Origin: a virus
Strand: one strand, 5' to 3'
DNA: 27,368 bases
IMG/VR virus record: IMGVR_UViG_3300010160_002017
Location: 1-27,368 of that record
Shown: in pieces, positions 2,469 to 18,672 of the stretch
How positions within the stretch are numbered: the first letter of the stretch is position 1
Layout of the letters: the number at the start of each line of letters is the position of its first letter
Made by a program: the position numbers and the translations under genes
Notes under the pieces: generated by a model
Database searches by the model: none
Told to the model about the DNA's origin: nothing
Seen by the model: only the letters and a program-made list of their open reading frames with translations

Positions 2469-3206
2469 TTACACCATCCAAACATTGGCAAGAAACTTCT
2501 CTACTCTCTCAATGGTATCTTGTGGCTGGACTACTCTAAGACAGGTTACCCCAGCAAGAAGAGCAGGATAGTCATTTTCTCCTGGACGGAATTTGTCACC
2601 AACATACAGGATTTCTGATGTGTCAAGCTTTCTATATTTCATTAATTGTTTTAGTGCAAACTCTTTGTCTATACCTGGCAACGAAATGTCTATACTACTA
2701 GTACCACCAAGTCTAATGCTATAATCTGGTAGGACCTTCTTCAAGGCAGCAATCATTTCTTTACGCTTAGTTCCCCTTGGGTCCCAAGCAGACTTGTCTT
2801 CTAGTTTTGCCTTTTGTCCTAATGCAGAAAATGTAATCTGAGCTTTTCTATCTTCAATGATTTCTCCTGCTGGATTTTCTTCTAGAAGTCCCATGCTCTC
2901 TGCAGTAACTTTAACAATACTTTTAATAATATCTCGTTGTATCAATGGAATTTCTTCTTTGTATATTAAAGTTCCTTGTGCCTCATAGGTAGCACCAGAG
3001 CAAGACATTAAGTATAGCTTTGTTTGTACCCAGTCTGGTATTCTTCCCAGTACTTGAGTTTCAATTTGTTTTAGTGTACCGCCAGTAATAATGGCAATGT
3101 CATAATCATAAGCAAGTTTAGTAATAAATCTGGCAGTCTTATCATCAAGTATTTGTTTTGATTCTGTTAAGGTGCCATCAAGGTCAAAGGCTATTAGTTT
3201 ATACAT
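2469..3206 (-). CDS. HAD-IIB family phosphatase / phosphomannomutase-like
   Basis: About 245 residues. Motif I is AFDLDGTLTES near the N-terminus, motif II AIITGG, and late acidic motifs lie around YVGDKFRPGENDYPAL. The middle cap region (KRKEM ... RLGGTSSIDI) resembles type IIB sugar-phosphatase and eukaryote-like phosphomannomutase proteins. Expected role: removal or movement of a phosphate on a sugar. Its start overlaps the stop of the nucleotidyltransferase gene (3199), so the two are coupled and probably act in one pathway for making an activated sugar. ATG 3206 (or 3209) follows GGAAGA. Superfamily certain, reaction uncertain. Confidence 0.75.
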   Translation of the reverse strand: MYKLIAFDLDGTLTESKQILDDKTARFITKLAYDYDIAIITGGTLKQIETQVLGRIPDWVQTKLYLMSCSGATYEAQGTLIYKEEIPLIQRDIIKSIVKVTAESMGLLEENPAGEIIEDRKAQITFSALGQKAKLEDKSAWDPRGTKRKEMIAALKKVLPDYSIRLGGTSSIDISLPGIDKEFALKQLMKYRKLDTSEILYVGDKFRPGENDYPALLAGVTCLRVVQPQDTIERVEKFLANVWMV

Positions 3207-3633
3207 CATTCTTCCATTCTTTTAAAATCCAACTAGAGCTATTCTTTTTGTCATTACCACCAACACCAAAGACAAAAGCAACTCTATCGCTTTGTAAATC
3301 CATTTCTGGGATATTGTCTCTACCTCTATCTCCACCATTAGCAAAGACAATCATGGCATCTTCGTAATACCATAATAGCTTTTGAATAGCATCCTTGGCA
3401 GAGTTATCAGAATCATCAAACATAATAACTTCATCAACACAACGCAATTCTGAGATAACTATCTCACGCTCACTGTATGGCATAAAAGGCTTTCCCTTTT
3501 TGCGAGTAAGCCAAGCATCACTATTTAAACCAACAACAAGCCAATCACCTAGCTTTGCTGCTTCTTTAAAATAACTGATGTGACCTGAATGAATAGGGTC
3601 AAAGCCACCAGTAACCAAAACAATCTTACGCAT
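3199..3633 (-). CDS. Sugar-phosphate nucleotidyltransferase (HldE C-domain / RfaE2-like)
   Basis: A 144-residue protein of the cytidylyltransferase-like superfamily: VTGGFDPIHSGH (7-18) carries the HxGH nucleotide-binding motif, VGLNSDAWL (34-42) the next conserved strand, and PYSERE (52-57) the following motif. This order matches heptose-1-phosphate adenylyltransferases and related glycerol-phosphate enzymes, which join NTP and a sugar or polyol phosphate to give the activated donor. It overlaps the HAD gene downstream and a membrane micro-gene upstream. ATG 3633 has AAGGA at five bases, so I preferred it to 3636. A donor-making role for the phage glycosyltransferases is inferred. Confidence 0.8.
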   Translation of the reverse strand: MRKIVLVTGGFDPIHSGHISYFKEAAKLGDWLVVGLNSDAWLTRKKGKPFMPYSEREIVISELRCVDEVIMFDDSDNSAKDAIQKLLWYYEDAMIVFANGGDRGRDNIPEMDLQSDRVAFVFGVGGNDKKNSSSWILKEWKNDV

Positions 3634-3718
3634 CATCGTCCTTATTGTCTGTAGCCCATGCTAAAAGCAAAAGTAGGGGTAGACCAACAATTAATATAAT
3701 CCACTCAAGAACGCTCAA
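3626..3718 (-). CDS. 30-residue single-pass membrane protein, overlapping both neighbours
   Basis: A frame from TTG 3718 to TAA 3626 encodes a short N-terminus, one hydrophobic segment (WIILIVGLPLLLLLAWA, 6-22) and an acidic tail ending in NKDDDA. TGGAGC lies seven bases before the TTG. It overlaps the stop of the upstream gene (3705) and the start of the nucleotidyltransferase (3633), and it fills what would otherwise be a gap in an operon. It is probably a small inner-membrane peptide; function unknown. Confidence 0.6.
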   Translation of the reverse strand: MSVLEWIILIVGLPLLLLLAWATDNKDDDA

Positions 3719-4050: not shown

Positions 4051-4215
4051 ATGGATGAAAATCTAAAAGTACCACAAGAATATACAGATGGAATGAATGA
4101 CCAACGCATAATATTTTTTGAAAAACTAAGAGAACTTATTTTAGAAAAAGATATGAGTAATGATTTGGTAGCTGCTGCTGTTCTTGGATGGGCATACGAA
4201 CGATTGGCTGAGTAA
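4051..4215 (+). CDS. Small acidic protein, leaderless, coupled to a glycosyltransferase
   Basis: A 54-residue acidic, helical protein (starts MDENLKVPQEY, ends AYERLAE) with no motif I recognise. TGATATAAT lies six bases before the ATG and the stop is joined to the next start as TAATG at 4213-4217, so it probably feeds ribosomes onto the glycosyltransferase gene. It may only be a translational lead-in, or a small partner of that enzyme; neither can be decided from sequence. Confidence 0.65.
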   Translation: MDENLKVPQEYTDGMNDQRIIFFEKLRELILEKDMSNDLVAAAVLGWAYERLAE

Positions 4216-4889
4216 TGGATTTAGTTTACATCTGTAGAGATGGAGACAACGAAGAGTTAAGATACTCTATCAGGTCTGCTATAGTAAATCTTCCTCACGA
4301 TAATATTTGGGTATTTGGTGGTAAGCCAGATTGGTATATTGGAAACCACGTTAGGCTAAAACAAAACACAAACAAGTATGATAACGCTAGGGCAAACCTT
4401 GCTGCTATTGCTAGACATTACGATGTGTCAGAAAATTTTGTGTTGATGAATGATGATTTTTTTACTGTTAGACCTGTGGATGAAATCAAGAATTACCACC
4501 GTGGCACAATAGAGGGACATATTGAGATGGTAAAGTTTAGCGTTGGCTATCGTGTATTACTTGAAGAGACTCGTGATGTACTCAACTATCTTGGTTACGA
4601 AGAGCCACTAAGTTATGAACTTCATGTTCCAATGATAATGAACAAAACTAATCTTGCTAAGGTTGTTAGAACTTTGGGGCTATGGCGTTCTAACTATGGT
4701 AATATGTATAATGTTGGTGGAGAGAAGCATGATGATGTCAAGGTTCATAATCACGTTACCCTGGAACAAATCATAGCTAATCCACTTCCATATATTTCTA
4801 CAAATGATGATACATTTGAAGGTGTTTTAGAAGGTTATCTAAAAGATGCTTTCCCAGAACCAAGCAAATACGAAAAGTCCCCTCAGTAG
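4215..4889 (+). CDS. Stealth-like glycosyl/sugar-phosphate transferase
   Basis: A 224-residue protein. YICRDGDNEELRYSIRSA near the N-terminus, then WVFGGKPDW, and FVLMNDDFFTVRPVD (75-89) match the Stealth family pattern, in which an NDD segment lies in the active site. Known Stealth proteins transfer hexose-1-phosphate from UDP-sugars in capsule and teichoic-like polymers. This version is short and lacks the later Stealth blocks, so it may be a phage-specific minimal form. The start overlaps the upstream stop (TAATG). The last 12 coding bases overlap tRNA-Arg on the other strand, so its C-terminal residues are read from tRNA complement. Expected role: surface or virion glycan modification. 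Confidence 0.65.
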   Translation: MDLVYICRDGDNEELRYSIRSAIVNLPHDNIWVFGGKPDWYIGNHVRLKQNTNKYDNARANLAAIARHYDVSENFVLMNDDFFTVRPVDEIKNYHRGTIEGHIEMVKFSVGYRVLLEETRDVLNYLGYEEPLSYELHVPMIMNKTNLAKVVRTLGLWRSNYGNMYNVGGEKHDDVKVHNHVTLEQIIANPLPYISTNDDTFEGVLEGYLKDAFPEPSKYEKSPQ

Positions 4890-5101: not shown

Positions 5102-5347
5102 TTAATTTTGCCTGAGTTCATTAATGTTTTCCAATTTTAGAATTGCACCCTGTAGATTAATTCCACTAGGGTCTTTAGCCAATTCTTTTAGATAGTCAAT
5201 AATGTCAATTCGTTCGCTGTCTCTAGCCTGACGCTTGAAGTCTTCTAGAAGGTCACGAGACATTGTTAGATAGTTTTCCATTCCTGGAACTGTGCTAATT
5301 GTTGGAATACTATCTGTAAATAATTTGTTAAACTTCTCTTCATCCAT
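5102..5347 (-). CDS. Hypothetical helical protein downstream of groES
   Basis: An 81-residue acidic, mostly helical protein without a motif I can name. ATG 5347 overlaps the GroES stop as TAATG, with GGAG eight bases upstream inside the GroES gene. It is the last clear protein gene of the unit starting at 6061, before tRNA-Arg. It could be a cofactor for chaperone or head assembly, but only its position suggests this. Confidence 0.65.
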   Translation of the reverse strand: MDEEKFNKLFTDSIPTISTVPGMENYLTMSRDLLEDFKRQARDSERIDIIDYLKELAKDPSGINLQGAILKLENINELRQN

Positions 5348-5637
5348 TAGTTTTGCTCCAATACTGCAAGAATGTCACGATATGGTAACACTAGATAGTT
5401 CTCTCCATCGTGAGCAACTTCTGTGCCACTGTACTTTGCAAAGATAACCTTGTCCCCAATTTTTACATCTAGGTCAACGTGTGCTCCACTTGGAAGCGTA
5501 ATTCCTGGACCAACTGCTATCACAATTGCTTCTTGTGGCTTCTCGTCAGTCTTGTTAATCAAAAAGCCAGATGCGGTTGCTGAAATATCCTCAACAATTG
5601 GCTTTACTACTACTCTATCTTCAATAGGTTTTAGCAT
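5347..5637 (-). CDS. groES: GroES-type co-chaperonin
   Basis: A 96-residue protein of normal family length. It begins MLKPIEDRVVVKP, has a mobile-loop region near 15-33, and carries GDKVIFAKYSGTEVAHDGE and LVLPYRDILAVLE, the classical Cpn10 core and end. GroES caps the GroEL cage; phage homologues (T4 Gp31 in function) let host GroEL fold the capsid protein. No GroEL gene lies in the window, so it presumably partners host GroEL. ATG 5637 has AAGGAG upstream and overlaps the preceding stop as TAATG. The mobile loop carries ATASGFLI, near the hydrophobic tripeptide that touches GroEL. Confidence 0.93.
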   Translation of the reverse strand: MLKPIEDRVVVKPIVEDISATASGFLINKTDEKPQEAIVIAVGPGITLPSGAHVDLDVKIGDKVIFAKYSGTEVAHDGENYLVLPYRDILAVLEQN

Positions 5638-6067: not shown

Positions 6068-6096
6068 ATTTTACAGCATAGACCTAGATGTGTCAA
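6068..6096 (-). promoter_or_regulatory. Promoter of the groES unit, leaderless
   Basis: On the minus strand TTGACA (6096-6091), 17 bases, TAAAAT (6073-6068), six bases, ATG 6061. The TTGACA overlaps the stop codon of the thioredoxin gene, and its context ACGCTTGACA (6100-6091) is identical to that of the 1472 promoter. Confidence 0.75.
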
Positions 6097-6356
6097 GCGT
6101 ACATGGATAGAATTTTTTCTTCGGTAGCAACGCCAATATGTGAATCAATCAACTCTTCATTCTGAATACTCCAAAGAGTAGGAACAGACATTACAGAACC
6201 AAAATAAGATGTGTACTTATCAAATAGTTCTGTGTCTTTCTCAATATTAATTTTGATATAGCTTCCTGTATTTTCAGAAACTACCTTGTCAATCACTGGC
6301 TGCATTCTTTTGCAGGGCTGACACCAGTCAGCAGTAAAGTGAATTAGTGTTTTCAT
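6093..6356 (-). CDS. Thioredoxin-like protein
   Basis: An 87-residue thioredoxin fold with the redox motif WCQPC (11-15) after FTAD and a cis-proline segment SVPTL near residue 59. It is slightly shorter than typical thioredoxins, as phage versions usually are. It should reduce disulfides in the cytoplasm using host thioredoxin reductase; usual phage clients are ribonucleotide reductase or polymerase, neither seen here. The start overlaps the DUF2061 gene stop (ATGA), and it ends the unit that contains the APS-kinase fusion and sulfotransferase. Thioredoxin also serves sulfate reduction, but no reductase is visible, so a link with sulfur chemistry is only positional. Confidence 0.88.
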   Translation of the reverse strand: MKTLIHFTADWCQPCKRMQPVIDKVVSENTGSYIKINIEKDTELFDKYTSYFGSVMSVPTLWSIQNEELIDSHIGVATEEKILSMYA

Positions 6357-6529
6357 TTAATAACTCTTTTCCAAATTTTTTCAAATACCCAATAGGTAAA
6401 TATTTTAAATAGAACTTCCAGCCCAACAATTTGTGCAGCAGTTTCAAATTTACCAGTAACAGTTAAAGCAATCATAAAGGTAATTAAGCTTTGCCAAATC
6501 CTATATGCAATAGATTTTACTAATGTCAT
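6353..6529 (-). CDS. DUF2061-like small membrane protein
   Basis: A 58-residue frame from ATG 6529 to TGA 6353: VKSIAYRIWQSLITFMIA, a TG pair, a second hydrophobic segment with a conserved-looking lysine, then YWVFEKIWKRV. This layout (basic start, two short membrane helices, aromatic/HER-W-like end) is that of DUF2061, small membrane proteins that in other bacteria occur near or fused with sulfate-activation enzymes. Here it overlaps the APS-kinase-like gene by ATGA and the thioredoxin gene likewise. Role unknown. Family call moderate to good. Confidence 0.7.
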   Translation of the reverse strand: MTLVKSIAYRIWQSLITFMIALTVTGKFETAAQIVGLEVLFKIFTYWVFEKIWKRVIK

Positions 6530-7272
6530 AGTCCTAGTTCTTTGCGTTTTTGTGTTGCTGATATTGCCTGAATCTCTGGAGATAATTCTATCTTCTCTAT
6601 ATTATACCCTACATCACGCCCATACACAATGTTTGTAATGTTTGGTAAGCGAAGTTTAAGTTCATTAGTTTCATTTGGAATAAAGTTGTTTACTTCATCA
6701 AATGTAAGTGGGTCCTTGTCGGAAGTGTTGTGGGTGCTTCTAATGCCCACCAGAACCTGCTCAGTGCGATTGTGTGCCTCTTCCTTAAGGGCAGCGTGAC
6801 CTTCATGCCATGGCTGGTAGCGACCAAGCATCAGGGTTGTAGGGGCAGACCAATCAAACAAATTAAACTTATTAATGATTTCATCAGCCATTTCTTTTTC
6901 AGGCTTCCATTCATAGAAGGTGTGGTCAGCATCAACTACAGGAATCCACATAGCATCAGTATCAGGAAAGCGACTAGAGACAATAGTATTCATAACAATC
7001 TTAATATCTGGTTTGCCAAATGCTTCACGAGTTGTTTTAGTTGGACAGATAAAGTCTACAATTACAGTGTATCTTTGTTTAGATAGTAATGATGCCATCT
7101 CTTTCAAACGCCTTGCATTTTCTGCACGGTCTTTTTCACTAAACTTTAAATCAGAATTTAGGGTAGCTCTTACTTCATCAGCATTTAAATGAATAGCGTT
7201 TAGTCGCTCTTTGAGTGTCAAAGCCAGGGTGGTCTTGCCAGACCCTGGAAGTCCAAGTATCTGTATAATCAT
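6526..7272 (-). CDS. APS kinase-like / nucleotidyltransferase fusion
   Basis: A 248-residue two-domain protein. Domain 1 (about 1-140) has a P-loop GLPGSGKTT (7-15) and then NADEVRATLNSDLKFSEKDR (30-49) followed by ENARR, a close match to the adenylylsulfate kinase signature; this family turns APS and ATP into PAPS. Domain 2 (about 145-248) has GRYQPWHEGH (150-159) and ISATQKR (237-243), the HxGH and ISxTxxR motifs of the adenylyl/cytidylyltransferase superfamily. The kinase-then-nucleotidyltransferase order recalls animal PAPS synthase, but domain 2 looks more like an NMN/sugar-type enzyme than classical ATP sulfurylase. It directly follows the sulfotransferase gene, so making PAPS for it is the simplest idea. 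Confidence 0.82.
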   Translation of the reverse strand: MIIQILGLPGSGKTTLALTLKERLNAIHLNADEVRATLNSDLKFSEKDRAENARRLKEMASLLSKQRYTVIVDFICPTKTTREAFGKPDIKIVMNTIVSSRFPDTDAMWIPVVDADHTFYEWKPEKEMADEIINKFNLFDWSAPTTLMLGRYQPWHEGHAALKEEAHNRTEQVLVGIRSTHNTSDKDPLTFDEVNNFIPNETNELKLRLPNITNIVYGRDVGYNIEKIELSPEIQAISATQKRKELGL

Positions 7273-8141
7273 TATTTAGTCTTTGCGTAGTTGTATAGCT
7301 CTAAGTCTAAAGAATTGTCAGAATAAATCTGTGCAATCTCTGCTTCTGTAAGCATTGCCCTGAAGTCAGCACTTGTGTACGTTTTACCATCACCGTCTGT
7401 AAATGAGCCATAGTTATAATATGGAAAGCCAGACTCTGCAGTTTTTTCAGCAACAATAGAATTAAACTCTTCTTGCCAATCAAATCCCCAATTAGTCTTA
7501 ATCCAATCAAAAATTTTAACCATAAATTCATCGTGCCTGTCTGTAATTCCAACAATCAAACATTTGTCTAAGTTTGATTTGGCTGCACTTATAGAGAACT
7601 CTTCATTAGTTAAAAACCAATCTTCAGTCCTTTTTGCAAGCGTGTGTTCGTATATAGTTTGTGGTGATGCAAAAATTTCTGGTGAAACTACTGGGCTATT
7701 TTCATGTGTGTAGTTATACCTGTAGTGCTGCTCTAAGTTTTCTTTATTTACAATTCCAGTTAGGAATTTTGTTTGAAGGTTATTGTGAACAAGGTAAGCT
7801 TCATCTTCAAACAAATATCGTCTAAGTTTTTGCTCCAAAGAAAGTCCAGCGTAACCGTCTTTGTAGTTAAAAGTACTGTTAATTAAAAACCAAGTAAAGT
7901 TACTAATTACTCTATCTAGTGGCTCACGAAGTAGTACAGCGGTATCAAAATTCTCTAAATCTAATGGGGTAACTCCAAAATGTGAATTAATAAACTTATA
8001 GTCATTAAAATTAGTAAATGGAATTCCAAAAGTAGAAAACACTGGCATATTTTCTTTTTTAAGTAATGGTCTTAGATTACGTAGGACTAGTCCACCAACT
8101 TTTGGTATATGTAAAAAGTATAAAGACTTAGTATTTATCAC
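7272..8141 (-). CDS. Sulfotransferase (Sulfotransfer_2-like)
   Basis: A 289-residue protein with both PAPS-binding signatures: FLHIPKVGG (9-17), the 5'-phosphosulfate loop, and LREPLDRVISNF (71-82), the 3'-phosphate site. The end (LDLELYNYA) is also typical of the heparan/chondroitin-type family. It should transfer sulfate from PAPS to a hydroxyl or amine on a sugar or, less likely, a protein. GTG 8141 overlaps the upstream stop as GTGA, so it is coupled to the probable virion protein before it, and its own end overlaps the APS-kinase fusion. No signal peptide is seen, so it probably acts on a cytoplasmic substrate such as virion protein glycans or lipid-linked precursors. Confidence 0.88.
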   Translation of the reverse strand: MINTKSLYFLHIPKVGGLVLRNLRPLLKKENMPVFSTFGIPFTNFNDYKFINSHFGVTPLDLENFDTAVLLREPLDRVISNFTWFLINSTFNYKDGYAGLSLEQKLRRYLFEDEAYLVHNNLQTKFLTGIVNKENLEQHYRYNYTHENSPVVSPEIFASPQTIYEHTLAKRTEDWFLTNEEFSISAAKSNLDKCLIVGITDRHDEFMVKIFDWIKTNWGFDWQEEFNSIVAEKTAESGFPYYNYGSFTDGDGKTYTSADFRAMLTEAEIAQIYSDNSLDLELYNYAKTK

Positions 8142-9511
8142 AGTATTGACTTCACCTCAGTTGAATTATAGTAGGATGTGACATCTGTATATGCGACAGA
8201 ATATGAACTAGTTGTAGTTCCAGTTCCGATTGTATTTGCCAAAGTAACAGTACTTACTGTTCCGCTTGTTCCATAACTGCCACCACTAGAAATAGATATG
8301 TCGCTACCACTTAGTATTTTTATATTGCCTGAACCTGCTGCAAAAGTTCCTACCTGACTGCCGTCTGGTTTTAATTTAGCAAAAATTAAACCTCGGTTAG
8401 AAACTAATGATGAATAATAATTACTTACTCCAAAAACTAAGTCACCATTATTATCCAAATCAATAGTTTGAACTGTAGTAGTAAAGGAAGTACTACCAGA
8501 GTTTATGGTTATGTCTCTTTGCCATACAATACTCCAAGTTCCAGTTATAGAAAATTTAACAATTTTTACAACGGTTGACCCATTCCCACCAAATGCTGCA
8601 TATAAATAAGTTTCTGAGGAGTCAACTACCATTGCTGAAGCAATTCCATCAGTAAATCCAGATATTGTATATCCTGAGTCTTGACCAGCACTGGTTATTT
8701 TTCTTAGCATATGGATATTTGCATCTCCACTGCCAGAACCATTTGTAGCAGTCCAGTTTACGTAGTAATTGCCAGAATTTGCAGGAGCAACATATAAACT
8801 AATATTATATATTCCATATATGTTACCAATTAAATATCTTTGAGCAGTAGTTGAGCCAATGTTATATTTGTAGACATTTGCAAAAGTTTTGCTAGTTCCA
8901 TATCCACCATCGCCAGTGCCAGATGCAAAAATTGTATTAGAATTATTCATAATTATGTTTGGATAATAGCCCTCAAATTCTTGACTACCAGTAAGATTTT
9001 TTAAAGAAGATTTTGCTAAACCTGCACCAGTAGCGTAATCATAGGCTTCTGGAAGGTTAACTGCAACATACCCTTTACCAATAGCATACCCATAATCTTG
9101 TAGTCTAACAAGTTTTAAGTCGGATGTTATTAGCATACGTCCAGAAGCGTCAAATAAACTTCTTTTTTCTAAAACATTTCCATTAAAGTCAATTTTTATA
9201 ATATCACCTGGTGATACCGAGTTGCCAATAAACCAAATTCCATCAGAAACAACTAGAGGGGAATTCCAAGAATTTCGAGGATTATATTGGGGTTCTCTTT
9301 TTACCCAAATTACTTCTCCAGTAGTTCCATCACGTTTAATAATTTCCCCAGTACTATAAAAAGAATAATAATTATTTTGAGAATCAAAAACTGTTTTTAT
9401 ATACGTTTGCACAGGAGTATTGTTGGAAGAGTCACCTTTTGATACAACAAAATAAACTTTTGCTATTGCAGATTTAAGAGATGCTAGTAGTCCACTAAGT
9501 ATTCCAGACAT
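8138..9511 (-). CDS. Beta-propeller-like probable virion or tail protein
   Basis: A 457-residue protein rich in Gly, Ser, Thr, Asn and aromatic residues. Repeats of about 50-60 residues with strands such as GEIIKRDGTTGEVIWVK, IIKIDFNGNVLEKRS and IDLDNNGDLVFGVS look like PQQ/quinoprotein-type propeller blades. A short N-terminal segment (MSGILSGLLASLKSAIAK) could anchor it. I chose ATG 9511, joined to the upstream stop as TAATG, over an in-frame start at 9541. It follows two other probable structural genes and precedes the sulfotransferase. A tail-tip, fibre or adhesin role is inferred; the acceptor of the sulfate could be this protein or a glycan on it. Confidence 0.6.
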   Translation of the reverse strand: MSGILSGLLASLKSAIAKVYFVVSKGDSSNNTPVQTYIKTVFDSQNNYYSFYSTGEIIKRDGTTGEVIWVKREPQYNPRNSWNSPLVVSDGIWFIGNSVSPGDIIKIDFNGNVLEKRSLFDASGRMLITSDLKLVRLQDYGYAIGKGYVAVNLPEAYDYATGAGLAKSSLKNLTGSQEFEGYYPNIIMNNSNTIFASGTGDGGYGTSKTFANVYKYNIGSTTAQRYLIGNIYGIYNISLYVAPANSGNYYVNWTATNGSGSGDANIHMLRKITSAGQDSGYTISGFTDGIASAMVVDSSETYLYAAFGGNGSTVVKIVKFSITGTWSIVWQRDITINSGSTSFTTTVQTIDLDNNGDLVFGVSNYYSSLVSNRGLIFAKLKPDGSQVGTFAAGSGNIKILSGSDISISSGGSYGTSGTVSTVTLANTIGTGTTTSSYSVAYTDVTSYYNSTEVKSIL

Positions 9512-9912
9512 TATGACAGTCCGTTTCCACTGGCAATCCAAGAAGTAGCAGTAATCTTTATAAGTGTTGCAACACCATGAGCAGCAAGAGTTCTTGTTCC
9601 AGTTGTTCCAGCATTTGCCAAAAGCAGAGTATCAGTTGTTATTGCAATAGAAGTAGAAACTGCAGCAGCATTAACAATAGTAATGGCTGTTCCAATTTCA
9701 AACGCTACCGAAGAGTTTGCTGGAATAGTTATTGTTTGTCCAGTAACAGTTACATAAATGTGTTTACCAGCATCAGATGCTGCTAGTGTGTATGATGCTG
9801 ATTTAGAGTTTTGTGGCATACCAATGTAGCCAGTGCTAGATGCAGCAGCGGTAGCTGCAGGAGCAGACGGAGAGCCACCAGATGATGGGGCTGGATAAAA
9901 TGTAGTACCCAT
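9511..9912 (-). CDS. Phage structural (fibre/appendage-like) protein
   Basis: A 133-residue protein with a low-complexity Ser/Pro/Ala N-terminus, then a beta-rich domain containing YTLAASDAGKHIYVTVTGQ and ITIPANSSVAFEIGTAITIVN, ending in ITATSWIASGNG. This domain is common in tail and capsid-decoration proteins of phages from aquatic samples. ATG 9912 follows AAGGAAG; an in-frame start at 9978 would overlap the upstream gene more and lacks this site. It is coupled to the propeller gene (TAATG). Expected to be in the virion; exact place unknown. Confidence 0.7.
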   Translation of the reverse strand: MGTTFYPAPSSGGSPSAPAATAAASSTGYIGMPQNSKSASYTLAASDAGKHIYVTVTGQTITIPANSSVAFEIGTAITIVNAAAVSTSIAITTDTLLLANAGTTGTRTLAAHGVATLIKITATSWIASGNGLS

Positions 9913-10212: not shown

Positions 10213-11301
10213 TTATTTGTTTTTTAGTGTGCTTACTTTATGTCCAACCAAGGTATCTGTTGGCTTACCATCACGGTATAGTCTAATTACTGCAGCAGGG
10301 TCTTCTGGTGTTCCAGTTATTACAAAGTCTGAGTTAGGAACATTGTATTTACCATTTCTAATAATTCTAACAATCTTTCCTGTTGCTGTACCGCCAGAAG
10401 AATTCCAGGAAACCATACTGCCAACACTGCCAGCCTTAGACACGGATAATTCATCTCTAGAATAGTCTTTACCAAAATCAGCAAACAATGCTTTGTCCAT
10501 TTCTCTTTGAGCTATGCCACGAGACCAAGAAAAACCAGCGTCTCCACCCCAAGCGTCCCACATAATGCGACCATTGCTAGGGTTAGCAGTGTTGTTAAAG
10601 TCCTTGCCCTTTTTGTCTACCTCGTGGCGTGAGAAGAATGAGTACATACGCTTAACTACACTAAGAGACATTGAGCGACCTGCTACGATATCTCTGGCTC
10701 TACCCCAGCCAACAGGAGTTCCTGCTCCAGTAGCCTTGCCTTCTTCTTTCCAACGGATAGCACGAGCAGCAGCAGCCTTCATGCCAGAGGTTGGTGAGTA
10801 AGACTCTGCCTTATGCATATCTTCATCCATATACATTTCCATATCATAGTCCATGTTATTTTCCATGTCATCTTCCATGTGATGTCCCTCTAAAGCGTCT
10901 AGCCTTGTTGCATCTGCATACATCATTCCAATGCTGTATGCTGTTGGTTCCCACACACCATCTTCTTCTTCTTCATAAATTCTAACAGACATTGCTGGAT
11001 TGTCTGGTGGCATAGACTCTAAAGCATATTGACTACCAGGGGTACCAAGAGTGCCACCTTCAATCATAATGTGTTCAACACGACCATGAACTTCACCGTC
11101 CATAGTATTACCCATTACGTAGTCACCTTCCATAATGTCTGTGGCTGCTTTGCCAATGTTTCCTTCGCTACGATTAATAGCGTAAATCTGTCCAGCAGCT
11201 TCTGCTCTGGTTTTGTGGCAACCCATGACGGTTCCATCATCTTTAACTGCAGGGTATCCGCTACATCCGTAACTTCCCTTTGCTCCAACTTTATAGGGCA
11301 T
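10213..11301 (-). CDS. Multidomain phage protein with DUF2945-like Tudor ends and Met/Asp-rich linker
   Basis: A 362-residue protein. The N-terminus (MPYKVGAKGSYGCSGYPAVK, then GCHKTRAEA) is a small Cys-containing module seen at the start of phage head-linked proteins. Residues 57-130 (GDYVMGNTMDGEVHGRVEHI) and 294-358 (VSWNSSGGTATGKIVRII ... TDTLVGHKVSTL) resemble DUF2945 small-barrel domains. Residues 170-262 (GWGRARDIVAGR, RMYSFFSRHEVDKKGK, WGGDAGFSW) match a helical module common next to phage head proteases. Between lies a Met/Asp/Glu/His-rich segment (140-163). ATG 11301 is joined to the Dps-like stop (TAATG); an upstream start at 11382 is unlikely. Probably head-associated; function not known. 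Confidence 0.65.
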   Translation of the reverse strand: MPYKVGAKGSYGCSGYPAVKDDGTVMGCHKTRAEAAGQIYAINRSEGNIGKAATDIMEGDYVMGNTMDGEVHGRVEHIMIEGGTLGTPGSQYALESMPPDNPAMSVRIYEEEEDGVWEPTAYSIGMMYADATRLDALEGHHMEDDMENNMDYDMEMYMDEDMHKAESYSPTSGMKAAAARAIRWKEEGKATGAGTPVGWGRARDIVAGRSMSLSVVKRMYSFFSRHEVDKKGKDFNNTANPSNGRIMWDAWGGDAGFSWSRGIAQREMDKALFADFGKDYSRDELSVSKAGSVGSMVSWNSSGGTATGKIVRIIRNGKYNVPNSDFVITGTPEDPAAVIRLYRDGKPTDTLVGHKVSTLKNK

Positions 11302-11792
11302 TAGTCTTTCATCTCCATTTGCTGTGCTGGTGCTTCTGCCATAGGTTCTGGTTTTACTACAGTGCGTAGTTGCCAAGTCCATTTCTGGTGAGCAGTCTGA
11401 CGGTCTGCAAAAAAGTTAGCAAGACCATTTTGCTTTGCAGCAGTAGCCATGTCAAATGCCTGAATAAGTTTTGGAGTAACCAATTCAATTGATGCCAGAA
11501 GGTCTGCAGACATTGCTTCGTGGTCAGTAGTTACTGGATTTTCTGGAACAGTTGACAAAGATGCTAAACGAGATAGTGAGAATGGAGCATACTGTCCATT
11601 GTCAACCAAGCGAATCCACTCTCCAAATGGGTCGATTGCACCTTCAAAATCTTCATAAATTTTTTGGAAGAACTTGTGGTATTGTGGGAAGTCGTCTGTC
11701 TCTACGTTCCAGTGATATCCATGTGCCTTAAACTTTAGGGCAATAGTGTCTGCAAGCAACACCTTTAGCATATTAATAAGCTCTTCATTCAT
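11301..11792 (-). CDS. Dps/ferritin-like protein
   Basis: A 163-residue four-helix protein. HGYHWNV (24-30), then H39, D54 and E58 (HKFF ... IDPFGEWI), follow the Dps ferroxidase pattern; the position equal to Asp67 of E. coli Dps appears to be Gln, so iron chemistry may be weakened. Dps proteins oxidise iron with peroxide and bind DNA; phage members may protect DNA or serve in the head. The C-terminal tail (PEPMAEAPAQQMEMKD) is Pro/Ala/Met-rich rather than basic. ATG 11792 lies six bases after TATAAT, so the message is probably leaderless. It is coupled by TAATG to the Met/Asp-rich protein. Confidence 0.8.
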   Translation of the reverse strand: MNEELINMLKVLLADTIALKFKAHGYHWNVETDDFPQYHKFFQKIYEDFEGAIDPFGEWIRLVDNGQYAPFSLSRLASLSTVPENPVTTDHEAMSADLLASIELVTPKLIQAFDMATAAKQNGLANFFADRQTAHQKWTWQLRTVVKPEPMAEAPAQQMEMKD

Positions 11793-11861: not shown

Positions 11862-12248
11862 TTAAATGATTGTAATTTGTTTTGGTTTCTTTTCTTCTGG
11901 AATGTTTCGAATTAGGTCAATGTAAAGAATCCCATCTTCAAATCCAGCAGCCTCTACCTCAAAGTACTCTGGTAGAGTAAAGGCACGAGTAAACTTACGA
12001 GCAGCAATACCCTTGTGTAGGTATGACTTATCATCAGCAACTTTGTCTGCCTTAATTGTTAGAATGTTTTTTTCAGTAGTGATACTAATGTCACTCTTCT
12101 TGAAACCAGCTACCGCAAATTCCATAACAATCTTGTCTTCGTTAATCTTAACAACGTTGTATGGTGGGAATGCGGTTTGGGTTGGTACTGTTTGGAAAAA
12201 CTTGTCAATATCTAGACCAAGTGCTCCGAATGGGTTAGTAATAACCAT
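11862..12248 (-). CDS. Small heat-shock protein (Hsp20/alpha-crystallin)
   Basis: A 128-residue protein with a short N-terminal arm, then an alpha-crystallin domain from about residue 29: YNVVKINEDKIVMEFAVAGF, KKSDISITTEKNILTIKA, and the closing ARKFTRAFTLPEYFEVEAAG with DGILYIDL; the tail carries PKQITII, an I-x-I-like motif. These ATP-independent chaperones hold unfolding proteins; cyanophages and other aquatic phages often carry one. I chose ATG 12248, about eight bases after AGGAG, over an ATG at 12257 that sits on that site. It has its own promoter (12304-12312), a roughly 50-base leader with a hairpin, and a terminator. Confidence 0.92.
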   Translation of the reverse strand: MVITNPFGALGLDIDKFFQTVPTQTAFPPYNVVKINEDKIVMEFAVAGFKKSDISITTEKNILTIKADKVADDKSYLHKGIAARKFTRAFTLPEYFEVEAAGFEDGILYIDLIRNIPEEKKPKQITII

Positions 12249-12277
12249 ATATATCATCTCCTATTAAGCGAGTTGTA

Positions 12278-12350: not shown

Positions 12351-13316
12351 TTGGCTAATATAGTATTTTTAGGTAACTTTGAAGTTCCCTATAGTAGTGA
12401 AAACCATCACGTTAGAAGTCTTGAGGCACTTGGACATAATGTAATGAAGATGCAAGAACGCATCATGCCGTCGGATAAAATTTATAGAAGAACTAAGGAA
12501 TTTAACGCTGACCTGTTTATTTGGGTACACACTCATGGCTGGGAAACCCCTGGAATGTATTCAATGACCGATATTCTGGAAAGATTTCACGAACAGGGCA
12601 TTAAGACAATGACGTATCACCTTGACCTTTGGTTTGGTCTAGACCGCCAGAAGGATTTAGAGCAGGATAACTTTTACAAAACAATTGGACATTTCTTTAC
12701 GGTAGATAAGCTAATGGCTGATTGGTTTAATGAGAATACTAATGTAAAGGGTCACTTCCTTACCGCTGGAGTTTTTGGAGAAGAGTGCTACATAGATAAA
12801 GGATATAATAAAGATAGCTTTGATTATGATGTAGTATTTGTTGGTAGCAAAAGATATCATCACGAATACCCCTATCGTCCACAATTAATTGATTTCTTAA
12901 AAGAAACATATGGCAATCGTTTCTTGCACGTTGGTGGCGATGGAGATACAGGAACTATCCGTGGAGAACAATTAAACACAATCTACGCTAGAAGCAAGGT
13001 ATCTATTGGAGATACTCTTAATATTGATTTTAATTATCCTTACTACACTAGCGATAGACTATTTGAATCAACTGGTCGTGGTGGTTTTAGCATTTATCCT
13101 CGCATTGTAGGACTAGAGGAATACTTTGAGGATGGCAAAGAAATTGTATTCTATGAGCATGGGAATCTGCAAGACCTAAAAGAAAAGATTGATTATTATA
13201 TTATAAACAATGATGAAAGAGAATCAATCAGATTTGCTGGACATGAGCGTACTAAGAATGAACATACATACAAGCACAGATGGCAAACCATCTTGAAAGA
13301 ATTAGGCATTCAATGA
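12351..13316 (+). CDS. CgeB-like GT-B glycosyltransferase
   Basis: A 321-residue protein of the Glyco_trans_1_2/CgeB type. The N-terminal half (IVFLGNFEVPYSSENHHVRSL) is the acceptor domain; the C-terminal half has VVFVGSKRYHHEYPYR, LNTIYARSKVSIGD and SDRLFESTGRGGFSIYPRIV followed by an EYFEDGKEIVFY segment, the usual donor-binding order. It starts at TTG 12351 with AAGGA eight bases upstream. First gene of a six-gene plus-strand operon set against minus-strand neighbours; the stop overlaps the next start as ATGA. Donor sugar unknown. Confidence 0.85.
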   Translation: MANIVFLGNFEVPYSSENHHVRSLEALGHNVMKMQERIMPSDKIYRRTKEFNADLFIWVHTHGWETPGMYSMTDILERFHEQGIKTMTYHLDLWFGLDRQKDLEQDNFYKTIGHFFTVDKLMADWFNENTNVKGHFLTAGVFGEECYIDKGYNKDSFDYDVVFVGSKRYHHEYPYRPQLIDFLKETYGNRFLHVGGDGDTGTIRGEQLNTIYARSKVSIGDTLNIDFNYPYYTSDRLFESTGRGGFSIYPRIVGLEEYFEDGKEIVFYEHGNLQDLKEKIDYYIINNDERESIRFAGHERTKNEHTYKHRWQTILKELGIQ

Positions 13317-13981
13317 AGTATGTAATGTGCCTACCATTTCGTGTAAAAGAATTTCGTGACGAGTTTATGAAAAATTGCAAACTTGATGTTTTTGAAATTG
13401 ATAATACAGAAAATAATATTGGCGTAATGGCTAGTCACAATCTTGGAATTAAAAAGCTTTACAAGGATAATGCTGATTGGCTTATCATTGCTAGTGCAGC
13501 AGTCAGGTTTGGAGAAATTGGTGGTCTTGACATCATCGAACACCTTTCCAAAACAGATGCTCAGATTGTTGAAGGAAAGCCTTTGTTTGGCTGGCATCTA
13601 ATGGCATTTAGAAAAGACGTTATTGATACAGTAGGTGGTTGGGATGAAAACTTTACTCCATATGGCTATGACGATTTAGACTATGCAATTAGAATTAAAA
13701 AAGCAATCCCAAACGTTAAGTGGGAAAAGATTGTTTTTGATGTTTCTGATACGGTTATGGGTCACAGCATTAACCTTGGTGGGGTAAGGTCTAACGACAA
13801 CATACTTCACCAATATTTTTATAACAAGTGGGGACACTATCCTGGTGGAGGAAATCCAACTGAGGAGTATTACGATACCCCATTTAACTTGCCAGATGTT
13901 GATATAAAATATTGTCCCAAAGAGGATGATTTAAATCATGTAAGCAGAATAACTGCAGGAAGGTACAAACAACATGACTGA
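13313..13981 (+). CDS. GT-A family glycosyltransferase-like protein
   Basis: A 222-residue protein with a family-2-like plan: NNIGVMASHNLGIKK (34-48) resembles the conserved AxNxGI segment; DWLIIASAAVRF (55-66) stands where a DxD metal site normally lies; and VGGWDENFTPYGYDDLDY (107-124) matches the region before the catalytic ED/DD and the final arginine (RIKK). The missing acidic pair at the DxD position suggests a metal-independent or altered enzyme. ATG 13313 overlaps the previous stop (ATGA), so I did not use the in-frame ATG at 13280. Second gene of the glycan operon. Confidence 0.7.
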   Translation: MKYVMCLPFRVKEFRDEFMKNCKLDVFEIDNTENNIGVMASHNLGIKKLYKDNADWLIIASAAVRFGEIGGLDIIEHLSKTDAQIVEGKPLFGWHLMAFRKDVIDTVGGWDENFTPYGYDDLDYAIRIKKAIPNVKWEKIVFDVSDTVMGHSINLGGVRSNDNILHQYFYNKWGHYPGGGNPTEEYYDTPFNLPDVDIKYCPKEDDLNHVSRITAGRYKQHD

Positions 13982-14684
13982 AATGGTAAAAGCTATTCTT
14001 AATGGAGAATGGAAAATGGTGCTTCCAAAGCACAGGGCAGATAGACCCGAATGGTATACAGAAAAAGGCTGGGAAAAACTCAGACTAAAATCAATGCATG
14101 ATGGTCTTGGTAAGGGTGATGTCATGTATTACGTTGGAGCTGAAGAAGGTGAAATGGCTGCTTTGTGTCAAATGTGGGGAGCAGAAGTTGTTTTGTTTGA
14201 ACCCAATCCAAAGGTCTGGTCTCATATGCCAGCAGTTTGGGAAGCAAATAACCTAGACCTGCCACTTGCTTGTATTCCTGGATTTGCTTCAGATGAAATT
14301 AATGACCTTGCTAGAGTTTATAATAATGAGTTTCCACCAGAGGCAAACCAGGTTATTGAAGCAGCACACGGCTTTAAAGAACTATATCTTGAAGGAGCCA
14401 ACTATGGTCAAATTACCATTGACTCCTGTGTGTATGATTATGGCATTAAGCCACCTACCGCCATCACATTGGATGTTGAAGGTAGTGAATGGAAAGTTCT
14501 TGGTGGGGCATACCATGTTCTTAAAAATTATAAACCAAAGATTTGGCTATCTGGACACCCAGAATTTATGTTTCACCAGTATGGAAAATATCTTGCAGAA
14601 CTTCGTCACTGGCTTAGAGATGAGTTTGGATATGAAGAAACATTAATTGACTACCAGCACGAGGCACACCTGTACTATGAATGA
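13974..14684 (+). CDS. FkbM-family methyltransferase
   Basis: A 236-residue SAM-dependent methyltransferase. VMYYVGAEEGEMAALC (50-65) is the SAM-binding strand and loop, VVLFEPNPKVW (72-82) the acidic motif after strand 2, and ITLDVEGSEWKVL (164-176) is the hallmark FkbM segment. FkbM enzymes usually O-methylate sugars or polyketides, and they are frequent in glycan clusters of phages and bacteria. It overlaps the neighbouring genes by eight bases at each end. Expected role: methyl capping of the glycan built by the adjacent transferases. Confidence 0.85.
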   Translation: MTEMVKAILNGEWKMVLPKHRADRPEWYTEKGWEKLRLKSMHDGLGKGDVMYYVGAEEGEMAALCQMWGAEVVLFEPNPKVWSHMPAVWEANNLDLPLACIPGFASDEINDLARVYNNEFPPEANQVIEAAHGFKELYLEGANYGQITIDSCVYDYGIKPPTAITLDVEGSEWKVLGGAYHVLKNYKPKIWLSGHPEFMFHQYGKYLAELRHWLRDEFGYEETLIDYQHEAHLYYE

Positions 14685-15534
14685 TATTAAGGCATACTTA
14701 TTGGCTGTTGATGGCAAAAGTTTTCCAGACCACAAATGGGATTTTGGTTTTGTTAAAGAAGCATTTGACAAAAATAAAATAACTTATGAAGAAGTAGCAT
14801 CATTACCTAAAGTTGATAAAGCCTTTGTGGTTATTTGTGGTTATGAAAATAGAGGACTAAATGAAGAGATATCTAGAGAGTTACGAAAAGTTAACAGAGT
14901 AGTTTTATTTGTTACAGGAGATGAGCGTGGTGCCTTTAGAGCAGATAGAATTGCACACCACAACATTCATGTTTGGATTCAATCTCCATATCCTGGTAGA
15001 CATGACCAATTTAATAAAATGCCAATAGGTTGTCCATCGCACATGAAAAATAACTTACCAGAATACACAGGTAAAAAGAATGACGCATTCTTTTCTGGTC
15101 AAATTACTCACGATAGACGCAAACAGCTTGCAGAAATTATGCCCAGTATTCCAAATGCATTGTTCAACCCTACCCCTGGATTTACACAAGGCTATGAACC
15201 AAAAGATTATTACAAACATATTCTTGAGTCTAAGATAGTTCCTTGCCCTGCTGGCACATCTACAGTAGACTCATTTAGGTTTTATGAAGCACTAGAAATG
15301 CTTGCACTTCCAATAGGAGATTTAAGAAATTCTTCTAATGAAAAACAAGACTATTGGAATTTTGTTTTTGAACAAGAAGTTCCAACACCCAAGACTGCAA
15401 ACTGGTATACTTTACCAGAAATTATATCTAAAGAATTAATAGACTATCCTGCAAATATGCACAGGGTAGTTAGTTGGTGGATTAAATACAAAAGAGATTT
15501 TGCATATAAGATTATGGAACAAATAAATGAATAA
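14677..15534 (+). CDS. Exostosin/GT47-like glycosyltransferase
   Basis: A 285-residue protein. The C-terminal block CPAGTSTVDSFRFYEAL (190-206), followed by EMLALPIG, is the exostosin-type donor-site pattern (CPxG, xDSxRxxEAL, xxPI). The N-terminal part (to about 130) is the less conserved acceptor half; FFSGQITHDRRKQL (138-151) marks the interdomain region. ATG 14677 overlaps the FkbM stop by eight bases; an upstream in-frame ATG at 14647 lies well inside that gene. The stop overlaps the next start by eight bases. GT-B fold and role in the glycan chain inferred. Confidence 0.75.
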   Translation: MNDIKAYLLAVDGKSFPDHKWDFGFVKEAFDKNKITYEEVASLPKVDKAFVVICGYENRGLNEEISRELRKVNRVVLFVTGDERGAFRADRIAHHNIHVWIQSPYPGRHDQFNKMPIGCPSHMKNNLPEYTGKKNDAFFSGQITHDRRKQLAEIMPSIPNALFNPTPGFTQGYEPKDYYKHILESKIVPCPAGTSTVDSFRFYEALEMLALPIGDLRNSSNEKQDYWNFVFEQEVPTPKTANWYTLPEIISKELIDYPANMHRVVSWWIKYKRDFAYKIMEQINE

Positions 15535-16300
15535 AAAAGATATTACGGTTGTATTGGTTACTTCGGTAATTCCTAGCCACCCAGAAACATATATTCTTGA
15601 AGAGACAATTAAAAGTATTAGACATCACCTACCAGATAGTGAAATCATTCTTCAAATTGATGGGTTGAGAGAAGAACAACTTCATCGTAAGGAACAGTAT
15701 GATGAATATAAAACAAGAATACTTTGGAAATGTTTGCATGAATATAAAAATGTTTTACCAATTATTTTTGAAAAGCATTCTCACCAAAGCACAATGATGA
15801 AACAAACAATTGATTTAATCAACACTCCTTTGATGGTTTATATTGAGGGTGACACTCCTTTAGTGATTGATGAACCAATTGACTGGGATGCTTGTGTTGA
15901 TATTATTGATTCTGGCAAGGCTAATACCGTTCGTTTTTATCACGAAGCTGTTGTTCCAGAAGCTCATAACTGGCTAATGCTAGACATAGTTGGGGACTTT
16001 TTAGAAACAGTTCAATGGAGTCAAAGACCACACCTATCTAAAGTTTCCTACTATAAAGAAATAGTTTTAGCTGATATGCCAGAAAAAACTTTTATTGAAG
16101 ACTATATGCATAGCGTTGCTTATGAAGAATATATAATTCCTTGGAAAAAAACTAAATCTAAAGAAGGTTGGGAAAAACATAAACTTTGGATTTATTATCC
16201 AAGCAAGACAAATAACAAACGGTCTTATCACACAGATGGTCGTCAGGGTCTAAAGAAATTTACTGATGATGATATTTCATGGGGGCTTACGGAAACATGA
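15527..16300 (+). CDS. Family-2-like glycosyltransferase
   Basis: A 257-residue GT-A-like protein. VVLVTSVIPSHPETYILEETIKSI starts the nucleotide-binding strand and first helix (in two pieces: ITVVLVTSVIPSHPE and ILEETIKSI), EIILQIDG (39-46) the next strand, and MVYIEGDTPLV (102-112) stands in the DxD position as EGD. The C-terminal half is rich in Trp and Lys (WKKTKSKEGWEKHKLW) and could bind glycan. It is joined to both neighbours by short overlaps. Donor and acceptor are unknown. Confidence 0.7.
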   Translation: MNKKDITVVLVTSVIPSHPETYILEETIKSIRHHLPDSEIILQIDGLREEQLHRKEQYDEYKTRILWKCLHEYKNVLPIIFEKHSHQSTMMKQTIDLINTPLMVYIEGDTPLVIDEPIDWDACVDIIDSGKANTVRFYHEAVVPEAHNWLMLDIVGDFLETVQWSQRPHLSKVSYYKEIVLADMPEKTFIEDYMHSVAYEEYIIPWKKTKSKEGWEKHKLWIYYPSKTNNKRSYHTDGRQGLKKFTDDDISWGLTET

Positions 16301-17331
16301 GACTAGGAATAATTGCAAGAGCAGACAAAACTGGACTAGGAAATCAAACTAAAGAATTAGTCGATATGCTAAAGCCAGATAAAATTCTTCTTATTGATTC
16401 ATCACATTTCAATGGCAACAAGCAATACCCAGAATGGTACGATGGATATAATGTTCAAACCACTAGTGAAGGATTTGCAACATATTCAGAAGTTGGAGAA
16501 TTTTTAACTGACATAGATGTAGTAATTAGTTGTGAAATATTTTATAGTCATAGGCTTTCTAACTTAGCACATAGACGTGGAATAAAAACAATTCTACAAT
16601 ACAACTATGAATTTTTTGAACATTTTGTTCACGATGGAATTAGGCAACCACATATCTTACTTGGACCAAGTTTATGGAATATGGATAAGATGAGAGAATA
16701 TTTTGGAAACCATTCCAGAATAATGCATCTGCCACCACCAACTTCTCCAGAAATATTTAAAGAAGCAAGAAAGATTAACCAGGCTAAAACACATAAACGA
16801 ATTCTTCATGTTGCAGGTAAACGAGCCCATGGTGATAGAAACGGTACTGATACTATTATTGAAATGTTAAAATATTCTAAAGCAGATTATGAATTAGTTA
16901 TAACGGTTCAAGGTGACTATGACCCAAAGTGTGAAGACTCTAGGCTTACCATTAGAAATGATAATCCAGACAATAGGGCTGACCTGTATTCTGGATTTGA
17001 TTTGATGGTTCTACCTCGCAAATATGGTGGACTATGCCTACCAATGAATGAAGCATTGCTTAGTGGACTCCCTGTTATTATGACAAATATATCACCTAAT
17101 AATACCATCTTACCTCTAGAATGGCTTGTAGAGGCTTCCTATGACCGCACAATTAACTTTAAAGGTCCTACCGACTCATATGAGACAGACCCACAGAAGT
17201 TAGCGGAACTTGTTGATAAGTTTATTAATGAATATGACATTCCTGCAACTAAACATAAAGCATATGAAATTGGATACAATAACTTTGCACCAGATGTTTT
17301 AAAAGATAAATACTTATCCATTATTGGGTAA
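16297..17331 (+). CDS. GT4-family glycosyltransferase
   Basis: A 344-residue GT-B enzyme. GIIARADKTGLGNQTKEL (4-21) is a glycine-containing N-terminal loop; the C-terminal domain has ILHVAGKRAHGDRNG (169-183) and ADLYSGFDLMVLPRKYGGLC (228-247) followed by LPMNEALLSGLPVI (248-261), the family's E-rich donor site in a shortened form. ATG 16297 overlaps the previous stop as ATGA; an upstream in-frame start at 16279 is inside that gene. It is the last gene of the operon; a strong terminator begins seven bases after its stop. Confidence 0.88.
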   Translation: MRLGIIARADKTGLGNQTKELVDMLKPDKILLIDSSHFNGNKQYPEWYDGYNVQTTSEGFATYSEVGEFLTDIDVVISCEIFYSHRLSNLAHRRGIKTILQYNYEFFEHFVHDGIRQPHILLGPSLWNMDKMREYFGNHSRIMHLPPPTSPEIFKEARKINQAKTHKRILHVAGKRAHGDRNGTDTIIEMLKYSKADYELVITVQGDYDPKCEDSRLTIRNDNPDNRADLYSGFDLMVLPRKYGGLCLPMNEALLSGLPVIMTNISPNNTILPLEWLVEASYDRTINFKGPTDSYETDPQKLAELVDKFINEYDIPATKHKAYEIGYNNFAPDVLKDKYLSIIG

Positions 17332-18381: not shown

Positions 18382-18672
18382 TTATTCCTGTTCCATCGTT
18401 AGATTTTGCCAAGTATTAGCCCAATCAGTTTTTGATTTATGTCTATTGAATTCTCTAGATATTTTTCCAGCATCTAAATAAACTCCACCCCAAACACCAT
18501 ATTCTTTGCTTGAGATACCCACAGCAAAACACATTTTAGCTATAGGACACATAGAGCACATTTCATCAATAGCAGGTCTTAGCTCAAGGTCTTCTTCATA
18601 TTTATCAAAGAAGAGTTGTGTGTCAAAGTCTTTACACTGAGCATCCTGTTTCCATTCATCCTTGTGAGCCAT
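18382..18672 (-). CDS. whiB: WhiB-family Fe-S transcription regulator
   Basis: A 96-residue protein with the four WhiB cysteines, C13, C39, C42 and C48 (MCSMCPIAKMC), which hold a 4Fe-4S cluster, followed by the G(V/I)WGG turn at 59-63 (YGVWGGVYL) and a basic C-terminus (REFNRHKSK). WhiB proteins occur only in Actinobacteria and their phages; they bind sigma-A region 4 and alter promoter choice. In phages (for example TM4 WhiBTM4) they block host whiB genes and superinfection. It overlaps the upstream gene at 18656. Here it is the strongest host clue and could steer host polymerase to phage promoters. Confidence 0.93.
   Translation of the reverse strand: MAHKDEWKQDAQCKDFDTQLFFDKYEEDLELRPAIDEMCSMCPIAKMCFAVGISSKEYGVWGGVYLDAGKISREFNRHKSKTDWANTWQNLTMEQE

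Follow-up and report, generated by a model that had tools for sequence, protein, structure and literature searches.

Several described systems resemble parts of the phage locus examined here. In animal PAPS synthase (PAPSS1/2; ~600 aa), a kinase domain comes first and an HxGH adenylyltransferase second. In the ATP sulfurylase-APS kinase fusions of Aquifex and Thiobacillus and in fungal Sat, the adenylyltransferase precedes the APS kinase, and the sulfurylase is the canonical PF01747 type. The CysD/CysN(C) system is built differently: the GTPase CysN drives CysD, an enzyme of the PP-loop type. For phages, single sulfur assimilation genes have been reported, e.g., a phage PAPS reductase (PMC10434257). 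In contrast to these auxiliary genes, the protein studied here (KinNT) is a fusion of an APS-kinase-like domain and an HxGH nucleotidyltransferase that we read as a PAPS synthase, and it is paired with phage sulfotransferases. We found no description of such a fusion as a PAPS synthase, or in partnership with phage sulfotransferases, in the literature searched (which took in few subscription journals and preprints); the first-pass annotation of this DNA likewise knew of no described system of the same composition.

The window, i.e., the whole stretch of DNA analyzed, is a 27,368-base virus record. It encodes the following genes at the locus of interest:

7272..8141, minus strand: sulfotransferase-like protein (289 aa, GTG start)
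6526..7272, minus strand: KinNT, the APS-kinase-like/HxGH nucleotidyltransferase fusion (248 aa)
6353..6529, minus strand: DUF2061 small membrane protein (58 aa)
6093..6356, minus strand: thioredoxin (87 aa, CQPC active site)
8138..9541, minus strand: 467-aa ORF, a possible virion protein, the end of which overlaps the sulfotransferase start by 4 bases

Neighbors in the four-gene group overlap by 1 to 4 bases in the ORF list. Coordinates and family searches bear out the four overlapping genes at 6093-8141 under the names first given to them, of which that of the sulfotransferase is the weakest. The group had also been described as coupled to probable virion genes. The 4-base overlap with the 467-aa ORF is there, but it is the one basis for this coupling, and Pfam and PHROG searches returned no family match for that ORF. 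The same gene order had been suggested as something to seek in related phages, and sulfotransferase-KinNT-DUF2061 does recur in six other viral contigs; because of this recurrence, the arrangement is not a product of chance. The idea of a fixed four-gene cassette did not survive, as at least 593 viral contig stretches encode KinNT relatives, most of them lacking this sulfotransferase, and linkage to the thioredoxin is inconsistent. What stays constant is the pairing of KinNT with DUF2061, and the sulfotransferase is exchangeable. In the six close relatives with the conserved order, KinNT is 84-85% identical, whereas the sulfotransferase is only 36-40% identical. The virus is a virus of freshwater bacteria, and its host is probably an actinobacterium, because the TerL in the window is 53% identical to Streptomyces phage terminases and the window also encodes a WhiB-like gene.

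KinNT matches PHROG phrog_10255 ("kinase") over its full length (1.1e-57). Matches to KinNT were found in six phage records; in five, they extend over most of KinNT, with identities of 36-41%. Its two domains are a kinase (residues ~1-140) and an NMNAT-type HxGH nucleotidyltransferase (NT; residues ~141-248). The joining of an APS-kinase-like domain to an HxGH nucleotidyltransferase, as proposed in the first-pass annotation, is confirmed by Pfam matches to APS_kinase (PF01583; 9e-18, 65.1 bits versus a cut-off of 21.1, covering residues 2-84 only) and CTP_transf_like (PF01467; 1.5e-6, residues 148-187). For the kinase domain, TIGR00455 gives 64.2 bits, which does not reach the APS-kinase equivalog cut-off of 138.7. 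A fold search with a predicted model places the kinase nearest to APS kinases (best Z, 16.7), with ~21-32% identity to those listed compared to 13-15% for gluconate and sugar kinases (a gluconate kinase, at 15% identity, has a Z of 15.0). In CysC, APS is held by Asp480, Arg483, Phe492, and Arg497 (PMC4373884). The equivalents in KinNT, D32, R35, F44, and R49, are invariant in 31 relatives, so the residues whose loss had been named as grounds for rejecting an APS kinase are present on alignment. The P-loop lysine (K13) is also invariant in 31 sequences. The ~30-residue APS-kinase lid, with Arg559, Lys562, and Phe576, corresponds to a much shorter stretch in KinNT, and no counterparts of these three residues are apparent in the alignment. 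In one viral contig (L015:6001-6753), the KinNT frame has a stop after residue 81, either a sequencing error or a broken copy.

By sequence and profile, the closest relatives of the NT domain are NMN adenylyltransferases of the NadM/NadR type (hhalign probability of 98.6 to NadM/Nudix-type NMNATs). PF01747 is absent from the Pfam scan, and hhalign of NT against SAR11 Sat gives a probability of 6%. The domain carries the motifs GRYQPWHEGH, YGRDVGY, and ISATxxR, and HxGH and ISATxxR are motifs of ATP-using adenylyltransferases. YGRDVGY is invariant in the phage NT alignment and is common but not universal in bacteria, some of which have YGRG or YGRQ; it is GRD-like and may be the equivalent of the GRD loop of Sat. 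In Sat, a QXRN sulfate/phosphate loop precedes HxxH (PMC3779200). This loop is absent from NT in our alignment, where GRYQ stands before PWHEGH instead. The view that domain 2 is a relative of ATP sulfurylase, as in animal PAPS synthase, is therefore not upheld at the sequence level, as the sequence matches NMN adenylyltransferases and is without the QXRN motif. The NMNAT acceptor motif (invariant D80, N84, and W87 in A6) also has no counterpart, and the stretch reads LPNITNIxYGRxVGY. Given that both the Sat QXRN loop and the NMNAT acceptor motif are absent, sequence alone leaves the function of NT undecided. The NT half of the structure model is weak (block pLDDT of ~35-76), and the kinase domain accounted for the matches in both fold searches, including the Penicillium Sat entries, which match through the kinase-like domain of Sat.

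In these terms, KinNT shares with animal PAPS synthase the domain order (kinase, then HxGH adenylyltransferase), as the first-pass annotation had noted, as well as the kinase fold and the APS-binding residues, and we propose that it catalyzes the same two reactions. It differs in its length, in its short kinase lid, and in a second domain of ~110 residues that is NMNAT-type, is without QXRN, and is not recognizably related to PF01747 by profile. KinNT cannot be filed as a member of the Sat family, and its kinase falls below the APS-kinase equivalog cut-off, so it would represent a variant form of sulfate activation.

The profile match to NMNATs raises the possibility that KinNT functions in NAD salvage, as a nicotinamide riboside kinase joined to an NMN adenylyltransferase (NadR-like with the domains swapped) that rebuilds NAD during infection. 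Two Casjensviridae isolates (L082 and L083), in which the gene immediately upstream of KinNT is of the NADAR type, are in keeping with this; a "cysteine dioxygenase" and a MazG-like gene are nearby, and no sulfotransferase exceeds the Pfam cut-off in either record. We nevertheless consider NAD salvage improbable, as the acceptor-binding motif of NMNATs is missing from NT and as the genomic context of NT is sulfur metabolism rather than NAD. It would leave unexplained the fusion of NT to true APS kinases, the cysI-cysH operon, and the aprBA and sulfotransferase contexts described below.

Phage KinNT proteins and alphaproteobacterial proteins, mostly KIN-NT fusions, form one clade (support of 0.998) in a midpoint-rooted FastTree phylogeny of 113 NT domains. 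SAR11 sequences, the NTs of cysH operons, SAR116 sequences, and the OCS116 fusions fall outside it. The relatives that supply the bacterial context belong to other clades and share about half of their NT residues with phage KinNT, which counts against the reading proposed below, as the function of NT is carried over between such clades. KIN and NT are separate, overlapping genes in some genomes (L183, L184, and L185) but are joined in phages, which means that the fusion was either gained or split.

Three bacterial contexts place NT in sulfur metabolism. The first is a fusion. In OCS116 alphaproteobacteria and one gammaproteobacterial MAG, NT forms the N-terminal part of a fusion protein whose other part is a genuine APS kinase (TIGR00455 scores of 243 and 247 bits for the two complete genes, against the cut-off of 138.7). 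The domain order is that of the Aquifex, Thiobacillus, and fungal proteins, with NT in place of the canonical sulfurylase. The second is an operon on one strand in four small alphaproteobacterial genomes (G234, G365, G462, and G540), and the third is an association with aprBA in SAR11:

L314:3267-8404, with L315, L316, and L317: CbiX-like-CobA-CysI-CysH-DUF2061-KIN-NT operon, without CysD or CysN in the operon
L183:7992-12806, with L236-L239 and L241-L259: separate KIN and NT genes adjoining aprM-aprB-aprA in SAR11, in more than one arrangement

The families of the siroheme-cysI-cysH operon were checked in one of the four genomes. CysD went undetected in three of them, and G462 has only a weak match located approximately at its CysH gene. 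Unlike the CysD/CysN(C) system, in which a GTPase drives a PP-loop enzyme, NT is of the HxGH type, and no GTPase is seen in this operon. KIN and NT occupy the place expected for cysDN/cysC. Sulfate must become APS or PAPS before it can serve CysH, and the operon offers no candidates for this step other than KIN and NT.

Most SAR11 bacteria are reported to be without ATP sulfurylase (PMC10356861), and "Ca. Pelagibacter ubique" lacks sat and cysDN and has AprBA (PMC5069961). NT occurs in 84 of 117 SAR11 genomes, mostly adjacent to KIN, and canonical Sat (PF01747) in six of the same 117. In 23 of the 40 SAR11 regions examined, aprA is within 1.4 kb of NT, and L183 is another case. In the remaining regions, the genes clustered with NT are those for a Rieske-type dioxygenase and an enoyl-CoA hydratase-like protein (both recognized by eye from sequence) and, in some, a methanethiol-oxidase-like protein. 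PF01747 was found in none of six NT-bearing genomes tested, among which Bradyrhizobium and one SAR116 gave CysD-like matches; such gene absences are weak evidence, because many NT-bearing genomes may be incomplete. Elsewhere, bacterial KinNT genes adjoin Sulfotransfer_1, _2, or _3 proteins or TPR-sulfotransferases.

The SAR11 arrangement also suggests a reading in which NT acts on APS without being an ATP sulfurylase, for example, as an APS:phosphate adenylyltransferase (ADP sulfurylase) or as an enzyme that runs only in the APS-consuming direction. NT sits there with AprBA, which makes APS from sulfite, and consumption of APS fits. However, the cysI-cysH operon and the sulfotransferase neighbors require APS to be made from sulfate, and the HxGH and ISATxxR motifs are established as those of enzymes that use ATP. 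We regard this alternative as very unlikely. An NT domain that is an ATP sulfurylase could accommodate the aprBA context by running backwards, converting APS and PPi to ATP and sulfate.

In phages, KinNT is associated with sulfotransferases. The sulfotransferase-like protein of the window matches Pfam Sulfotransfer_2 just below the cut-off (E value of 3e-4; 21.4 bits versus 22) and PHROG 3347 ("Galactose-3-O-sulfotransferase"; 3e-5). It has a 5'-phosphosulfate-loop-like HIPKVGG (residues 11-17) and a 3'-phosphate-motif-like REPLDRVIS (residues 72-80). As HIPKxGG and R-x-PLDRxxS, these are kept across its relatives, so the two PAPS-binding motifs noted in the first-pass annotation are present as motifs. 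Its AlphaFold model is poor (pLDDT of 45.5). Used as a query, it found no relative in the viral contigs or phage records; its relatives were reached only via KinNT.

Elsewhere, the gene directly upstream of KinNT is often another, different sulfotransferase-like protein. Iterated phmmer searches up to 6 kb to each side of KinNT, which superseded a strict two-motif regular expression that gave only seven sulfotransferases, recovered sulfotransferase-like ORFs in 36 of 83 KinNT loci. These ORFs belong to ~16 unrelated clusters and lie directly upstream of KinNT in 12 loci; most KinNT loci have no sulfotransferase within the 6 kb. Among TerL-selected control loci, 8 of 80 were positive (Fisher p of ~1e-6 versus KinNT loci, a value that is indicative only, because the loci are related to each other and the counts are not independent). 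Of these eight, four share their contig with a KinNT gene, and three are on short fragments. When whole contigs were searched with Pfam, a sulfotransferase was found in 23 of 47 with KinNT, compared to 1 of 37 without it. On four contigs (L022, L024, L064, and L066), the few kb around KinNT contain two or three sulfotransferase-like genes that differ from one another. Among isolates, Stenotrophomonas phage DLP_6 carries both a KinNT and a sulfotransferase gene. In three loci (L036, L078, and L081), the gene directly upstream of KinNT is a luciferase-like monooxygenase that resembles, by eye, alkanesulfonate monooxygenase, possibly a further sulfur gene.

Based on this genomic context (the fusions, the operon, aprBA, and the sulfotransferase neighbors), we provisionally assign a function to KinNT. 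We consider it likely that KinNT serves the phage as a PAPS synthase, that its ATP sulfurylase domain is a compact, non-orthologous one, and that the adjoining sulfotransferase draws on this PAPS to sulfate a glycan of the virion or host. The NT domain would convert ATP and sulfate to APS and PPi, so that an NMNAT-type HxGH domain would catalyze the ATP sulfurylase reaction, and the kinase domain would phosphorylate APS at the 3' hydroxyl, using ATP and yielding PAPS and ADP. PAPS would then serve as the sulfuryl donor for the upstream sulfotransferase, whose acceptor would most likely be a glycan, carried either by the phage particle or by the host envelope. We infer both catalytic activities, and the use of PAPS by the sulfotransferase, from the observed arrangement of genes, conservation of motifs, fusions, operons, and co-occurrence. 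The original suggestion that the phage makes PAPS and sulfates its particle or a host glycan thus keeps its core, PAPS supply plus sulfation, which the fusion, operon, and co-occurrence favor, but not the fixed set of four genes. With reasonable, though somewhat lower, confidence, we also propose that NT is a third, hitherto unrecognized family of ATP sulfurylase (~110 residues, NMNAT-type), providing phages with PAPS for sulfation and constituting the "missing" Sat of most SAR11, where it would convert the APS from AprBA to ATP and sulfate.

A virion or envelope glycan is a plausible acceptor because the window has a glycan island at 12351-17331, in addition to the 467-aa ORF that overlaps the sulfotransferase gene. 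Glycan synthesis genes occur at 12351-17331 (plus strand), 4215-4889 (plus strand), and 2469-3636 (minus strand) and include several glycosyltransferases, an FkbM methyltransferase, and Stealth_CR2-like, heptose-1-phosphate-adenylyltransferase-like, and PMM-like HAD proteins. That KinNT instead makes an activated sugar or alcohol for glycan synthesis, with the nearness of sulfotransferases reflecting common surface modification regions, is highly improbable: the kinase fold is also close to those of gluconate and sugar kinases, and a distinct heptose-type nucleotidyltransferase (3199-3636) and a PMM-like HAD protein (2469-3209) are encoded in the window along with the six-gene glycan island, but the APS-specific residues are invariant, the kinase is closer in identity to APS kinases than to gluconate and sugar kinases, and all of the sulfur contexts of KinNT and NT count against it.

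The other two genes of the group differ in their ties to the putative PAPS synthase. The DUF2061 protein of the window is well supported (PF09834; 1.1e-12, 48.7 bits versus a cut-off of 23.1), and the ORF just downstream of KinNT belongs to one DUF2061-like cluster in 60 KinNT loci. In the four bacterial operons, DUF2061 also lies between cysH and KIN. Among 115 alphaproteobacterial genomes, most DUF2061 copies have no evident adjoining sulfur gene; therefore, its link is with the KIN/NT module. In the literature, we found DUF2061 only as entries in iron-response gene lists. It is a frequent membrane partner of the module and may function in sulfate supply or membrane attachment. The thioredoxin (PF00085; 1.3e-11, 44.8 bits versus a cut-off of 23.5; CxxC reading CQPC) has relatives in only 10 of 83 KinNT loci and is probably a bystander of the sulfate module. 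A role as the reductant for a PAPS reductase was considered and dropped, as no cysH-like gene was recognized in the window.

PAPS is the universal sulfating agent, and its supply can limit sulfation. A phage with its own PAPS synthase and swappable sulfotransferases would have a surface modification strategy for which we found no description in the literature searched. SAR11 is one of the ocean's most abundant groups of bacteria, and AprBA there makes APS; NT, as a neighbor of aprBA, provides a concrete candidate for the ATP sulfurylase step that is missing from SAR11 sulfite oxidation. If this is correct, the capacity to activate sulfate has been overlooked in genomes whose annotation denies it.

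The window also encodes GroES-like (5347-5637), ferritin/Dps-like (11301-11792), Hsp20 (11862-12257), and WhiB-like (18382-18672) genes, as well as a pyrimidine dimer DNA glycosylase-like protein at 907-1413 on the minus strand (PF03013; 2.9e-18).
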